NCBI GenBank assembly: GCA_903877395.1
Contig: CAIRDU010000170.1
Coordinates: 1-35,053 of the forward strand
Origin: an uncultured Planctomycetaceae bacterium
GTDB taxonomy: Bacteria; Planctomycetota; Planctomycetia; Pirellulales; UBA1268
Length of the DNA: 35,053 bases
Direction: 5' to 3'
Shown here piece after piece: positions 6,426 through 35,053 of the stretch. A program made the translations under genes and the position numbers. Below the pieces are notes generated by a model that had not been told where the DNA came from, did no database searches, and was given only the letters and a program-made list of their open reading frames with translations. Numbering within the stretch: the stretch's first letter is position 1; every line of letters begins with the position of its first letter.

Positions 6426-7339
6426 CACGTGCAGCAAGTGTTGCTGCGTTCGATCTGAATAGTCGTGTGAGCGACGCCACAGTGGCGGCGAAGTTCTTGC
6501 AACGATTGCAGCAGCACGCCTTCGTGCAGTTCGATGTTGGGCACGACGAGGTGAACCGTCAGCGAAATCTCAGATGTGCTGGCGTTCCAAATATGCAGTT
6601 CGTGAACATCTGCCACGCCAGGAATCCCTGCGAGCAGGCTGCGCACGCTCTCAGACTCGATGCCCTTGGGTACGGCATCGAGAGCCAAGTCGATACTCTC
6701 GCGAAACAGTCCCCACGTGCTGGCAACAATCGCCAGTGTGATCGCGATGCTCACAACTGGATCGATCCAAACCAAGCCTGTCGTAGCAATCAGAATTCCC
6801 GCCAGCACGACGCCAGTTGACACGGCCGCATCGGCTGCCATATGCAGATAGGCTCCGCGGAGATTGGCATCCTGCTTACTTCCTTGCATGAAGAGCATCG
6901 CCGTGAGCGTATTGATCGCGACCCCGATTGCGGCCACCACGATTACCACGGTGCCTGCAACCGGTTCGGGAGCCCATAGCCGATGACAGGCTTCCCAGAG
7001 GATCACTCCACAGGCCGTCAATAAAAGAGTGGCGTTGGCAATCGCTGCGTAGATCGTGGAGCGACGCAAGCCCCAAGTGTACCGTGGCGTCGGCGGGCGT
7101 CTGGCCAGCCAACTGGCCCCCCAGGCCAACAGCAAGCCGATCACATCGCCCGCATTGTGGCCAGCATCGGCCACCAGCGACAGCGAACCGGCCAGCATTC
7201 CTCCGGCGATCTCCGCGATCACGAATGCCCCGTTCAAACTCACGCCGAGAGCCATTGCCCGATCAAACGTCTGAAGCGAGTAGCCGTGCGAATGGGAGTG
7301 CGACTTCCCGTGGCTGTGCTCTGGATGGTGGGGAGGCAT
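6422..7339 (-). CDS. cation diffusion facilitator family transporter (CzcD/ZitB-like)
   Basis: His-rich N-terminus HHPEHSHGKSHSHSHG; SLVADAGHNAGDVIGLLLAWGA; HMAADAAVSTGVVLAG; C-terminal DVHELHIWNAST. Internal ATG at 7339 or ORF start at 7381. Confidence 0.93.
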   Translation of the reverse strand: MPPHHPEHSHGKSHSHSHGYSLQTFDRAMALGVSLNGAFVIAEIAGGMLAGSLSLVADAGHNAGDVIGLLLAWGASWLARRPPTPRYTWGLRRSTIYAAIANATLLLTACGVILWEACHRLWAPEPVAGTVVIVVAAIGVAINTLTAMLFMQGSKQDANLRGAYLHMAADAAVSTGVVLAGILIATTGLVWIDPVVSIAITLAIVASTWGLFRESIDLALDAVPKGIESESVRSLLAGIPGVADVHELHIWNASTSEISLTVHLVVPNIELHEGVLLQSLQELRRHCGVAHTTIQIERSNTCCTC

Positions 7340-7449
7340 TGTTCCAATCGTTTTCGTCAATGGCTCGAACAAGTGTAGCACTCCATACGTGCCGCACTCG
7401 GCATCTCGTTGCTATCCGGTTGGAGATCCCGTGGAGTAGAATCATACCC

Positions 7450-8046
7450 ATGACCGCAGCCTCTGCCGCTATTTTGTTGTTCTTTGTGATGGACCCCATC
7501 GGGAACATCCCGCTGTTTCTGGCGGCGCTCAAGTCGGTCGACACCTCGCGGCGGCTTTTGGTGGTGGGGCGAGAGTTGGTCATAGCCTACGCGCTGCTCG
7601 TGGCGTTTCTCTTTCTCGGCAGGCCATTTCTCGAGATGCTGGCGATTTCCGAGCCCGCCCTGACGATTGCCGGAGGGATTGTGCTTTTCTTAATCGCGAT
7701 CAAGATGGTATTTCCAGCCACGCATGGCACGCTCGGCGAACAGATTGATGGTGAGCCGTTTGTGGTGCCGCTGGCGATTCCCTACGTGGCCGGCCCGTCA
7801 GCACTAGCCACTGTTCTGCTCATGACGAGCCAAGATCCCGTTCGGCAGTTAGACTGGCTGCTGGCGATCTCCGTGGCATGGCTCGCATCGGCCGCGATCC
7901 TTCTTGCGGGCAGCAAGATCAGCGATTTTCTTGGCAACAAGGGGCTGATGGCAATCGAGCGGCTGATGGGCATGGTGCTCGTCGCCTCGGCCGTTCAGAT
8001 GTTTTTGGATGGCGTCTCAAAGATTACGATTTGGCAGAAAGGGTGA
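7450..8046 (+). CDS. MarC family (UPF0056) integral membrane protein
   Basis: FFVMDPIGNIPLFLAALK, IAGGIVLFLIAIKMVFP, PLAIPYVAGPSALATVLL. Start at ATG 7450 rather than ORF start 6928. Confidence 0.9.
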   Translation: MTAASAAILLFFVMDPIGNIPLFLAALKSVDTSRRLLVVGRELVIAYALLVAFLFLGRPFLEMLAISEPALTIAGGIVLFLIAIKMVFPATHGTLGEQIDGEPFVVPLAIPYVAGPSALATVLLMTSQDPVRQLDWLLAISVAWLASAAILLAGSKISDFLGNKGLMAIERLMGMVLVASAVQMFLDGVSKITIWQKG

Positions 8047-8052
8047 ATCACG

Positions 8053-9111
8053 ATGAAACTTTTGCGCGTGGCAGCGATTGGACGAACGGGGCGAGGTGAC
8101 TGGGGCCACGCCATCGACGAGCTGTGGGCCGGCGTTGCAGGCACCCAGCTTGTGGCCCTCGCTGACGACTCGGCGGAAGGGCTGGCGAAGGCTGTTGTTC
8201 GCAACAAGCTCGATGCATCGGTGCCCGGAACGGCATTTCGGGACTGGCGCACCATGCTGGCCGAAGTGAAGCCCGATATCGTTGCCATCTGTATGCGAGA
8301 GATTGACTGCCACGCCGAGATGGCGATTGCGGCGGCCGAGGCGGGAGTCAAAGGAATCTTTATGGAGAAGCCATTTGTGCGCACCCTCAAAGAGGCCGAT
8401 GCTGTGATTGCGGCCTGTACAAAATCAAATACAAAGCTGGCGTTGGCATTTGTCAATAGGCATTCGCCTACCTATGCTGCGGCTCGCGATCTCATTGAAG
8501 ACGGTCGGATCGGAAAAGTGCTGGAACTGCGAGGCCGAGGCAAGGAAGACGCACGGGGCGGGAGTGAAGATCTGTGGGTCCTGGGTTGCCACATTCTGGA
8601 CATGATTGTGGATCTTGGGGGTGCGCTGCAGTGGTGCGAGTCAAGCGTCACGCTCGGCGGTCGTCCAGTCGTGCCGGCCGATTTCGTCGAGGGTCCGGAG
8701 GGCATTGGCCGGATTGCTGGCGACAGCGTTCACGCAATGTTTGGGCTGTCCGACGGGCCGATCGGCTTCTTTGCCAGCGTCCGCAATGCTGGTCTCAAGC
8801 AGCCAAATTGCGGTCTCACTGTTGTCGGAACAAAGGGGGCGATTCACATCCGCCCCGATCACGGACCGCACGCCTATTTCCGAAACGCTCCGCTGTGGCG
8901 GATGGACAAGGATTTTCCATGGCAGCCCATTGGGCCAGAAGGGCTGTCCCTCACCCCGGTCAACGACGTGGACCGGGCGGCGGAACGGGCCGGATGGGGC
9001 CGCCGTGCAGCAGCCGATCTAGTGGATGCGATTGCAGAAGACCGCGAACCAGAAACTGGCATGTACGCAGGCCGCACCACGATCGAACTCACAACATCCA
9101 TCCTCAAATAA
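8053..9111 (+). CDS. Gfo/Idh/MocA family oxidoreductase
   Basis: MKLLRVAAIGRTGRGDWGH start, VKGIFMEKPFVRTLKEADAVI, ELRGRGKEDARGGSEDLWVLGCHILDM. Confidence 0.87.
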   Translation: MKLLRVAAIGRTGRGDWGHAIDELWAGVAGTQLVALADDSAEGLAKAVVRNKLDASVPGTAFRDWRTMLAEVKPDIVAICMREIDCHAEMAIAAAEAGVKGIFMEKPFVRTLKEADAVIAACTKSNTKLALAFVNRHSPTYAAARDLIEDGRIGKVLELRGRGKEDARGGSEDLWVLGCHILDMIVDLGGALQWCESSVTLGGRPVVPADFVEGPEGIGRIAGDSVHAMFGLSDGPIGFFASVRNAGLKQPNCGLTVVGTKGAIHIRPDHGPHAYFRNAPLWRMDKDFPWQPIGPEGLSLTPVNDVDRAAERAGWGRRAAADLVDAIAEDREPETGMYAGRTTIELTTSILK

Positions 9112-30315: not shown

Positions 30316-32271
30316 GTGTGTGGCATCTGTGGAGTCATCAGCGCTGATCCGCGACCGGTCGCCCCGGCCGTTCGTTCCATGATGCAAGCGATGGTGCATC
30401 GAGGCCCTGATGACTTGGGCTACGAGCAGTTGCCGCTGGGGAAAGATGGCAACGGGCCCGTGGTCGGATTTGGCTTTCGCCGCCTTTCCATTCTGGATCT
30501 TTCGCCGGCCGGCCATCAGCCGATGTTTCACCCACCCACCGGCAACTGCCTGATCTTCAACGGGGAGATTTACAACTCCCGCACACTGCGAACTGAGTTG
30601 GAGGCAAAAGGTAGCGTGTTTCGCGGCACGAGCGATTCGGAAGTGCTGCTTCACGCTCTCTCCACGTGGGGCGAGGCGGCACTCGAAAAACTTCAAGGTA
30701 TGTTTGCTCTGGCGTTTTACGAGTCTCAGTCGCGTCGGATTCTCTTGGCCCGTGATCCGTTAGGCATCAAGCCTTTGTACGTGGCAAAGCTTCCGGATCG
30801 ATTTGTGTTTGCCAGCGAAGTGCGAGCCGTGCTGGCATCCGGTCTGGTTTCAAGCGATCTGGACATGGCCGGTATCGCCGGGATGTTAGCGTATGGTGCG
30901 GTGCAGTCGCCTCGCACGGTGTTTGAGCAGATCAGGTCGTTTCCAGCGGGTTCTTCGCAGTGGCTCGATGCCTCGATTGCGATAGACGCAACAGTCCTGA
31001 ATCCGCCGCGGCGCTATTGGAGCTTTTCGCAACGCATTCTGGATGTCGATCGCCCTCAAGCTGCTGCCACTGTGCGCAGCATGCTGCACGAATCCGTGCT
31101 TCGGCATCTGGTGGCCGATGTGCCGGTGGGTGTATTTCTGTCGGCCGGGATCGACAGCACGATCATTGCATCGTTCGCCCGTGAATACACGCCGCAGGTC
31201 ACGGCCTTTACCGTGGGCTTTGGGGCGGTGCACGGGGAAGACGAAATGCCGCTGGCATCGGCCACCGCTTCGTCGCTGGGCATCAAGCACCTTTGTGTTG
31301 AGCTCGACGCGAACAATATGTCTTCAAAGTGGCACGAATGGCTCAAAGTCATGGACAGTCCGAGCATCGACGGCTTCAACACCTACGTCGTCAGCCGCAG
31401 GCTGGCTCAGGAAGGCGTCGTCGTGGGGCTCTCCGGATTGGGTGCCGACGAACTCTTTGGCGGATACCCGTGCTTCCGCCGGGCGATTCGGCTATCTCGT
31501 ATTTTAGAATCGCTCTCGTTGATTCCACGCTGCCTCAGGTCGGGGGCGGTGGCTGGCCTCGGATTCCTTGCACGCAAGCCCGAGGCAGCCGGCAAACTCT
31601 GCGATCTTGTGGGTGGCGATCCTAGCGTGGCCGGAATAACTCGGTCGCTGCGTCGCGCGCTCTCCAATCGGCGCATGCAGTCGCTGGATCTCTCGTCTCA
31701 ACGCGTGGGGCTTGCGGCCGACTATCTGGAAAGTGGTCCTGATCGACTCGATCCGATCTTGGATGACGAGCCATTCAATACAGTCTCTCGGCTCGAACTG
31801 GTTCACTACATGGGCGACACGCTCCTGCGCGACACCGATTCCAACAGCATGCAAAATTCGCTGGAGGTGCGGTTGCCCTTTTTGGATCTGCCGCTGGTTG
31901 ATTATGTTTCGGCGCTGCCGACCGCCGTGAAGTACGACAGCCGTAGCCGGCCAAAGGTGTTACTGCGAGACGCTTGCGCAGGCGTGTTTGGTGCGAGAAT
32001 CGCTAACCGGCCAAAAACAGGTTTTTCGCTGCCGATTGGCGACTGGATGCGTGGCCAGATGCGAGAGTCGTGTGAGGCAGCAATCGACTATCTGGGTGAA
32101 TGGTCTATGCTGGATCGCAAAGAGGTGCATCGCACCTGGGAATCATTTCAGCGTGCCAGCATCAGGATGCATTGGTCGCGACCGCTGTCGCTGGTGGTGC
32201 TGGGGAATTATCTAAAGCAGGCGTCTGCCATTCAGTCGCAGGCGTCATCAGCGCCGATCCACGCCCGGTAG
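30316..32271 (+). CDS. asnB: asparagine synthase (glutamine-hydrolysing)
   Basis: GTG start gives (M)CGICGVIS with catalytic Cys2; MVHRGPDDLG; FNGEIYN; FLSAGIDST; LSGLGADELFGGYPCFRR; SLEVRLPFLD; RPKTGFSLPIGDW. Confidence 0.95.
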   Translation: MCGICGVISADPRPVAPAVRSMMQAMVHRGPDDLGYEQLPLGKDGNGPVVGFGFRRLSILDLSPAGHQPMFHPPTGNCLIFNGEIYNSRTLRTELEAKGSVFRGTSDSEVLLHALSTWGEAALEKLQGMFALAFYESQSRRILLARDPLGIKPLYVAKLPDRFVFASEVRAVLASGLVSSDLDMAGIAGMLAYGAVQSPRTVFEQIRSFPAGSSQWLDASIAIDATVLNPPRRYWSFSQRILDVDRPQAAATVRSMLHESVLRHLVADVPVGVFLSAGIDSTIIASFAREYTPQVTAFTVGFGAVHGEDEMPLASATASSLGIKHLCVELDANNMSSKWHEWLKVMDSPSIDGFNTYVVSRRLAQEGVVVGLSGLGADELFGGYPCFRRAIRLSRILESLSLIPRCLRSGAVAGLGFLARKPEAAGKLCDLVGGDPSVAGITRSLRRALSNRRMQSLDLSSQRVGLAADYLESGPDRLDPILDDEPFNTVSRLELVHYMGDTLLRDTDSNSMQNSLEVRLPFLDLPLVDYVSALPTAVKYDSRSRPKVLLRDACAGVFGARIANRPKTGFSLPIGDWMRGQMRESCEAAIDYLGEWSMLDRKEVHRTWESFQRASIRMHWSRPLSLVVLGNYLKQASAIQSQASSAPIHAR

Positions 32272-32320
32272 AGCCGGCTGTTGGTTCCATGATGCGAGGG
32301 CCTGCTGCGGCCATGGCCGG
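32223..32320 (+). pseudogene. relic of a second asparagine-synthetase 5' end (GATase domain start)
   Basis: Frame 32223.. reads VCHSVAGVISADPRPVEPAVGSMMRGPAAAM versus asnB VCGI-CGVISADPRPVAPAVRSMM...HRGPDDL; 46/55 nt identity between 30331-30385 and 32241-32295. Confidence 0.8.
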
Positions 32321-32361
32321 ACATCGAATGAGCTTGCCTGAGGTCAGAACTGAACTCTGGC

Positions 32362-33072
32362 TTATAAAAGCCCTTCGGCCCGCATGCCCGCTAAGTCGGC
32401 TTCGTTGGCTCGGGCGTTTGTGCCGAGCACATAATCGGCCAGCGGAAAAACAACGTTGAAATTCTTGTTGGGATACCGGTGGTGCAGGTAGTGGTGGCGA
32501 GCCAGGAATTTATAAACAGACCAACGAGTGAAAAAGCGATCTTCCGGCTTGTGCATTTCCATGTGGATCTTATTCCAGATGTAATGATGCACGCAGGCGA
32601 TCACAGGGAAGATGATGGCCCCTGTATATGAAAAAACTGCGATCACAAGAGAAAACGGAAGCGATTCGAGAAACCCTTCCCGCATGCTCAATTGAATGCC
32701 CCGGTCTGTTCCTGCGGGCACAGGCTCATCGTGAAAAGTTTTTAAGTAATGGCCGTGGTGCACAATGGCGTGTTGCTCAAACGCCGTCTTGAGCGCCGCG
32801 ATGCGGCTGCTGAAAAATCCCTTGCGGTGCATCACGCGGCGATGCACCTGATGCTCGATAAAAGACATCAACACCGTCAGTCCAATCACCCATCCGGCCA
32901 CTTGAAGCACCAGAAGCTGAGTTACGGAGAGTTGCCAATCGGGTAGCACAGGGATGGCCTCAAGGCAGGTTGAGTAGGGGCTTCTTTGGAACAACGCGAA
33001 AAACGGGAAAAACGCGGCATAACCGTGCAGTGGATACAGCAACCCGCCGAGGCTCCGCAAGGCCACTCTCAA
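32362..33072 (-). CDS. fatty acid hydroxylase / sterol desaturase family protein
   Basis: Multi-TM with His motifs EHQVHRRVMHR, QHAIVHHGHY, RHHYLHHRYPNKNFNVVFPLADYVLGT. Confidence 0.88.
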   Translation of the reverse strand: MRVALRSLGGLLYPLHGYAAFFPFFALFQRSPYSTCLEAIPVLPDWQLSVTQLLVLQVAGWVIGLTVLMSFIEHQVHRRVMHRKGFFSSRIAALKTAFEQHAIVHHGHYLKTFHDEPVPAGTDRGIQLSMREGFLESLPFSLVIAVFSYTGAIIFPVIACVHHYIWNKIHMEMHKPEDRFFTRWSVYKFLARHHYLHHRYPNKNFNVVFPLADYVLGTNARANEADLAGMRAEGLL

Positions 33073-33117: not shown

Positions 33118-34296
33118 TCACCGCGGCCCGGCCTTCTGTGAGGGCTTGGCGTGTGGTGGCTCGTGTTGGAGTCTGAATGTGACCAGCTGGGTGGGTGTGC
33201 CCAGACCTCCGTTGTCGGCGATGGCAACCATAGATTGGGCGCCGTCGTGGAGCGGGGGGCCCAGGGCCAGTCCTTCGAGATTGCACCCCAGCGAGTCCTT
33301 CCAGAGCAGCCGCTTGGCAACGTGGATTTCTGGCCGCAGGGACAGATCCCGCTGAATGGTGGAGACGTCCTGTGCCTTTGCGGTATCGACGAGGTAGATC
33401 CGGTTTTCAAACGGCGGCAGGCCGTGCGTGCCGGAGCGTTCCATCACGAGCAGGCGGCCTTGGCCCAAGGCAACCAGTGCCACCACGCCAGAGAATGGTG
33501 CGCCGTTGATCACCCGAAGGAATGTGTGCGGTGAGTCGACGGGGTAGGCAACCTGTCGCTCAGCGGCGGCTGGTCCATTCCCGTGGGGTTCGCCGTCGGT
33601 GGGAATCGGGATCGAGGCCAGCCTCACAACGGTGCCGGTAGTTTCAGTGGGTGGCGGGCCGTCGTTGGGCAGGGCTTCTTCGTTGGCTGTCCAGATGGCT
33701 AGGCCGTCGGGGTCGACGCTCAACGATTCGAGGCTGCGGTTGGGACGGTGCGATTGGAGGATCGCGGGCAGCGGCACCATTCCAACGAGGCTGCCATCCC
33801 GCAGGGCCACGCCTCGGATGGCCGGCGTGTCTTCCTCGCAGACCAGCAGGCATGGCCCGGGATCTGGGAGGCCTCGCCGCATGAGTCGCCGGGCGATCCG
33901 TTTTTCGAGATCCGGCGGGCAAGGGGCCAGATCCTCGTAGTCGTGCGTGGCAGTCAGCGTGACGGCCCGCAGATTCTTGACGGCCAGTGGGGATCCATCG
34001 GCTGCCAGCGCAAGGGAGAACGTGATGAGCCGGTTGCTGTTGTCCATCACGGCGGCCCACGCATCGTCGCCCAGCCAGGTGATGCCACTCAAGCCGGTGA
34101 GTTGCACCGCTGCGTTTGCTCCATCGGTTGCTTCGTCGGGCAGAGCCAGCATGCCCAGCATCTCGATGCGGGTCTGGGGCGGCGTGATTCTCGAAGCCAG
34201 AGAGAACGCCGCCGGTTCAACCCAGACAACTGTGGCGACAGTGGCAACAGTCGCAAATCCGATCAGGCTCGCTACGACAATTCGGGCAGCACGCAT
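33118..34296 (-). CDS. esterase-like activity of phytase family protein with signal anchor
   Basis: N-terminal hydrophobic MRAARIVVASLIGFATVATVATVVWV; GLSGITWLGDDAWAAVMDNS, SLESLSVDPDGLAIWTANEEALPNDGP, NLEGLALGPPLHDGAQSMVAIADNGG. Confidence 0.85.
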   Translation of the reverse strand: MRAARIVVASLIGFATVATVATVVWVEPAAFSLASRITPPQTRIEMLGMLALPDEATDGANAAVQLTGLSGITWLGDDAWAAVMDNSNRLITFSLALAADGSPLAVKNLRAVTLTATHDYEDLAPCPPDLEKRIARRLMRRGLPDPGPCLLVCEEDTPAIRGVALRDGSLVGMVPLPAILQSHRPNRSLESLSVDPDGLAIWTANEEALPNDGPPPTETTGTVVRLASIPIPTDGEPHGNGPAAAERQVAYPVDSPHTFLRVINGAPFSGVVALVALGQGRLLVMERSGTHGLPPFENRIYLVDTAKAQDVSTIQRDLSLRPEIHVAKRLLWKDSLGCNLEGLALGPPLHDGAQSMVAIADNGGLGTPTQLVTFRLQHEPPHAKPSQKAGPR

Positions 34297-35053
34297 GCAA
34301 GCATCGTACCCGCTGGCCAGCCTGTGCGCGGTTTGATTTGAATGGCGGCACCGACTTTCTTTGTGCGATCCGGTGGCTGTGGGTTTGGCTGCTGCTTGGG
34401 AATAGGTTCGGGAACTCCGCGCAGGATAGCACACCTGCGTTTGGCCCTGCTAAACCAGTCGTTCGCCGACACGATCAGAGCTTCGCGTGCCGCCGGCTTG
34501 TCTGCGTGGCTGGCCAGGTGAAAATGGGCTTGTCCGAGCAGAAGAGCCAGCGGGGCGCTCCCGGAGTTCCACCGGGCCATTGCGGTACCGGTTCGAATGG
34601 CTGAGCCGAGCGCATCTGCGGCAGCCTGCCGGTCTGTTTTTTTCGTTGCCAAGCGATCTGTCACGATCGCTTGACGCAATTGCAACTGTGTGGTGTCTGA
34701 TATCGCGTCTCGCCCGAGAAATAAGAGCGAGAGCACGCAGGCCGCCACGAGACCCATTCGCGGCACATACTCCGGAATCTGAATCCAAGAGAAAGCATTG
34801 TTGCCGTTGTTCCTACTGAGGTTGGTTCGGCTAGGCACGCTCGAAGCCGACAGCCCCACCACCACGCACGCCAAAAACGCGTTTGCCGGTAGGTGGAGGT
34901 TCCAGTCAAAGGCGGAGTGGGTTGCGATCCCGGCCACGGCCGCCCACGGTCCGGCATTAAGTGTGCGATAGGCGCCTTTGGCTTCGCGGTAAAAGCGTAC
35001 GCCCCGCATCCACAGTCGGGTTGCGAGTAAGACGGCGATCGCCGTTCCAACAA
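34272..35053 (-). CDS. O-antigen ligase-like (Wzy/WaaL superfamily) membrane protein, 5' end outside window
   Basis: Frame stays open to the window edge; VAGIATHSAFDWNLHLPANAFLACVVVGL is typical of the C-terminal part of O-antigen ligase family proteins. Confidence 0.75.
   Translation of the reverse strand, partial: VGTAIAVLLATRLWMRGVRFYREAKGAYRTLNAGPWAAVAGIATHSAFDWNLHLPANAFLACVVVGLSASSVPSRTNLSRNNGNNAFSWIQIPEYVPRMGLVAACVLSLLFLGRDAISDTTQLQLRQAIVTDRLATKKTDRQAAADALGSAIRTGTAMARWNSGSAPLALLLGQAHFHLASHADKPAAREALIVSANDWFSRAKRRCAILRGVPEPIPKQQPNPQPPDRTKKVGAAIQIKPRTGWPAGTMLACVLPELS

Follow-up and report, generated by a model that had tools for sequence, protein, structure and literature searches.

How does the beginning of an asnB gene come to lie within, and just past, the end of another one, in a different reading frame? 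The question is raised by the window, a stretch of 35,053 nt on contig C170 of the 3.2-Mb assembly G000 (560 contigs, 80.8% complete). A preliminary description had proposed that the beginning belongs to the stub of a tandem asnB paralogue, which diverged while still coding and was later nearly all deleted. That proposal is upheld by an excess of synonymous differences and by an intact tandem pair in a relative. In our reading, which we consider probable, the stub is what remains of a type-B asnB, formerly the tandem partner of the surviving type-A gene, that decayed after type A had run into it. The relatives compared are Planctomycetes metagenome assemblies, and the genus is sampled by four genomes. 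The features of the locus are as follows.

30316-32271, + strand: intact type-A asnB (651 aa; GTG start; last codon ending at 32268, stop TAG at 32269-32271)
32206-32271, + strand: asnB 3' overrun beyond the usual C-terminus, NYLKQASAIQSQASSAPIHAR (from comparison of type-A C-termini)
32217-32225 and 32238-32246, + strand: 9-bp direct repeat GCAGGCGTC, copies 21 nt apart, bracketing the degraded start of the relic
32235-32305, + strand: relic, codons ~4-24 of a second asnB, VAGVISADPRPVEPAVGSMMR, then GP (from repeat search, blastn and maximum-likelihood placement)
32306-32361, no strand: junction spacer of ~56 nt, the distal breakpoint of a deletion or rearrangement (from local alignments against shuffles)
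32362-33072, - strand: convergent unrelated gene of 236 aa (open reading frame), sterol-desaturase-like by inspection only

The relic and its match to asnB

The window asnB encodes a glutamine-hydrolysing asparagine-synthase-like amidotransferase (TIGR01536, 397 bits against a cut-off of 267). Both the GATase (PF13537) and the Asn_synthase (PF00733) domains are present, and the start VCGIC gives an N-terminal Cys. The beginning of this gene recurs near its end as a direct repeat of 58 nt with 83% identity (30331-30388 and 32241-32298, spacing 1910). The second copy sits inside and just past the asnB 3' end, in a frame other than that of asnB, and the relic frame starts reading at 32235. The identity of 46/55 nt first noticed between 32241-32295 and 30331-30385 was reproduced by a repeat search; shuffled cores (n = 20, first 32 kb) reached at best 31/55, and in blastn against the whole assembly the pair has E = 2.6e-10. 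Chance similarity or convergent codon use at amidotransferase starts, for which we found no point in favor, are dismissed by these figures. No further credible copy of the asnB 5' or relic sequence was found by blastn in the 3.2-Mb assembly.

Over 54 nt, a stepwise count gives seven synonymous and two non-synonymous differences, while random substitution is expected to give a mean of 2.5 synonymous ones (P = 0.0008 for the observed excess). The earlier count of six synonymous changes in nine treats the two-base codon GCC/GAG differently and otherwise agrees. Since the differences are mostly synonymous, both copies probably remained coding sequences for the greater part of the time after their split.

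Tandem asnB pairs in related genomes

In a protein tree, two classes of asnB fall into separate clades, type A being 63-71% and type B ~50% identical to the window gene, which itself groups within the type-A clade. The loci of A/B pairs are as follows.

G002:C58 (L031), same genus as the window: A then B, overlapping
G077:C72 (L116): A then B, gap of ~30 nt
G016:C8 (L034): A, then the contig end
G022:C2 (L032): B then A
G028:C1 (L033): B then A
G087:C321 (L064): B then A, on a broken contig

A relative whose genome holds an intact tandem pair of asnB genes had been named as something to look for, and G002 and G077, and probably G016, provide it. In G002, an intact type-B asnB (6706-8652) follows directly after type A, and the upstream genes are syntenic with those of the window. 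The two genes overlap by 22 nt: the B start codon falls inside the A 3' end, and its phase relative to A is that of the window, the A-to-B offset being 2 modulo 3 in both. The G002 type-A gene ends in ...CAA TGT GTG GAA TCG CAG GCG TAA, which contains the B start ATG TGT GGA ATC GCA GGC GTA. In the window, which reads ...ATT CAG TCG CAG GCG TCA..., the A-frame codons TCG CAG GCG are those of G002 in the same phase, and the codons of the B relic come next.

In G016, the contig ends just after the type-A gene, ten bases into ATGTGCGGCA, so that to judge from sequence this genome probably carries a second asnB after type A. The position of this contig end, at the second-asnB-like start, suggests that assemblers break at tandem paralogues. 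More widely, pairs of the ~50%-identical A/B type recur beside glycosyltransferase genes in several genera of the family, in both orders and with spacings from the 22-nt overlap to ~600 nt; no paper on such pairs came up when the literature was searched for tandem asnB in exopolysaccharide loci of Planctomycetes. In the other two genomes of the genus, G001 (assembly 75% complete) and G003 (81%), strong asnB matches are lacking, and type A may thus have a patchy distribution within the genus.

The overrun of the type-A gene

In most of the other type-A proteins compared, the C-terminus lies no more than a few residues from VVLGxYL. Among those compared, only the window gene and that of G002 overrun this point, by ~15-20 residues. 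In the window, six asnB codons (QASAIQ) form a spacer, and the relic then holds the final ~11 codons together with the stop. The preliminary description had the last ~15 residues of asnB apparently encoded by the relic as a result of the deletion. The first part stands for the last ~11 codons, but the deletion was not the cause: the comparison of C-termini that it had called for shows G002 overrunning like the window with its second asnB intact. With the overrun confined to these two genes, a single origin in the genus ancestor, before the loss of type B, is probable. The tails themselves differ, G002 ending in VCRQSSREPMQCVESQA and the window in QASAIQSQASSAPIHAR; because their sequence is not conserved, the stub-encoded tail is most likely a passenger. 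That the stub was instead kept as a useful asnB tail or RNA, the 5' end of a dead gene now serving its paralogue as a recruited C-terminus, we regard as very unlikely. Had it been retained, the candidate uses would include asnB folding or the ending of transcription between convergent genes.

Which paralogue left the relic

The main alternative derives the relic from the window's own type-A asnB: the gene would have been duplicated in tandem recently, and the relic would be the stub of the second copy. In raw identity the relic is indeed closest to that gene (44/57, compared with 39-40/57 for the nearest type-B genes), and it has the residues ISADPRPV and SMM in common with it. In a maximum-likelihood placement (63-nt row), the relic is sister to the G002 type B; a tree constrained to put it in type A is 3.6 log units worse and is not rejected (AU p 0.29). 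However, the relic has Ala (GCA) at codon 5, as do five of the six type-B genes compared and none of the ten type-A genes. In a genus-wide search with the relic region, the only match outside G000 at E < 0.01 was to the first ~20 codons of the G002 type B (E 0.005), not to the G002 type A. Position, phase and overrun also agree with the A-B pair of G002. A recent type-A duplicate is therefore unlikely, and the relic was most likely left by the ~50%-identical type-B asnB of the family, as far as its short sequence indicates.

Lesions, breakpoint and right-hand flank

Resemblance to asnB had been described as beginning at the start codon, but codons 1-4 of the relic (GTC TGC CAT TCA, followed by GTC) hold no ATG, GTG or TTG and no recognizable MCGI motif, and homology begins at about codon 4-5. 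A Pfam search of the open reading frame containing the relic gave no match. The relic is startless and truncated, and its homology stops at ~32305. The ~15 nt described as missing after ATGATGC are indeed absent as an in-frame deletion: after MMR the relic reads directly GP, without the 15 nt encoding AMVHR, a loss that would have fallen between two CGAG words. GCAGGCGTC occurs only twice on the + strand of the window and is read in the asnB frame as a QAS..QAS repeat within the C-terminal tail. It may be the trace of a small rearrangement that destroyed the relic start.

The stretch after the relic was aligned with the window asnB and several relatives' genes, and no homology consistently above shuffles was found in DNA (both strands) or protein (three frames). 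A second patch noted earlier, VRTEL near 32343 against LRTEL of asnB, was rejected as chance: it resembles asnB no more than shuffled controls do, with at most p values of 0.02-0.04 scattered among 14 DNA tests at positions that differ between genes.

The truncated side of the relic adjoins the 3' end of the convergent 236-aa gene, for which Pfam and NCBIfam searches gave no match and whose homologues lie at other loci in relatives (G002:C126, 76%). No synteny with G002 is conserved to the right of the relic. The genes that follow the G002 type B resemble glycosyltransferases and an epimerase of the SDR type. On this side the window instead carries the 236-aa gene, a phytase-like protein and a gene that other genera, too, have downstream of asnB. 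The last of these is cut by the right end of the window (34275-35051, - strand); in G028, G087 and G006, homologues of it lie downstream of type-A asnB. At the loci of these three genomes, neither the 236-aa gene nor the phytase-like one was matched, so the window may have gained both where B was lost. A continuation of the deletion junction was absent both from the flanks of the G002 relative of the 236-aa gene (L088) and from those of the G002 type B. Because the right neighborhood differs from that of G002, the final step was probably not a simple internal deletion but a larger deletion or a rearrangement.

Could the break instead be an assembly artefact, a contig misjoin within an intact type-B gene? 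The metagenome assembly is fragmented, and the G016 contig breaks at exactly such a junction. However, a misjoin does not explain the lesions upstream of the breakpoint, namely the missing start and MCGI and the 15-nt deletion, and no remaining part of type B was found on any other G000 contig, although with an assembly of this completeness and fragmentation the remainder could be absent from the contigs. We give a misjoin little credence. Marginally less credible is an origin without any full second gene, in which a template switch or small ectopic duplication placed a copy of ~58 nt from the asnB 5' end after the 3' end. The match does span only ~58-70 nt, and the 9-bp repeat lies beside its start; but the 17% divergence, being mainly synonymous, implies coding after the split, and G002 has an intact second gene at exactly the same place.

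Proposed history

The decay of a type-B partner is supported by the match itself, by the intact G002 pair with the same phase and overrun, and by the lack of B elsewhere in the assembly. Against it stand the higher raw identity to the window's own type A, a placement that falls short of significance, the differing synteny to the right of the relic, and the incompleteness of an assembly from which a type-B remainder could be missing. We infer the order of events and the mechanism at the breakpoint as follows. The genus ancestor would have had a tandem pair on the + strand, type A followed immediately by a ~50%-identical type B. Loss of the type-A stop codon would then have made A end within the B start, in the other frame. 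In the window lineage B would have decayed, its start being destroyed and 15 nt lost in frame, and a deletion or rearrangement, now bordering on the 3' end of the convergent gene, would have taken away everything beyond about codon 31. The leftover would be a non-functional stub of ~70 nt, partly coding for the last residues and the stop of the surviving A.

Comparison with known kinds of overlap and loss

The relic shares its N-terminal sequence type with the type-B genes of G002, G022, G028, G087 and G077, and its place after type A with those of G002 and G077. Unlike the relic, these genes are full-length, at about 640-650 aa. As an event, this is ordinary gene loss after duplication, in an unusually clear case, and it leaves views of function or mechanism unchanged. 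It illustrates that stubs as short as this one can be recognized in raw sequence and that a single related genome can confirm them.

Two known kinds of change meet here. As in an ordinary stop-loss overlap, the upstream gene reads through the site of its former stop and enters the following gene in a different frame; unlike in such overlaps, the downstream gene was lost afterwards. Pairs that have lost one overlap partner are called 'widowed'; PMC3843671 describes such losses in Salmonella for overlaps of E. coli. The relic is one more case of this kind, well documented through a relative: the same-strand overlap of 22 nt is intact in G002, and in G000 one gene survives and B is absent (81% of the genome being covered). 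It differs from those pairs in that the partners are paralogues and the stub of the lost one is still readable and encodes the C-terminus of the survivor. The locus thus offers an example, documented by a relative, of an overlap formed by loss of the upstream stop codon and then widowed by loss of the downstream gene, with the outcome that part of a dead gene serves as the C-terminus of its paralogue.
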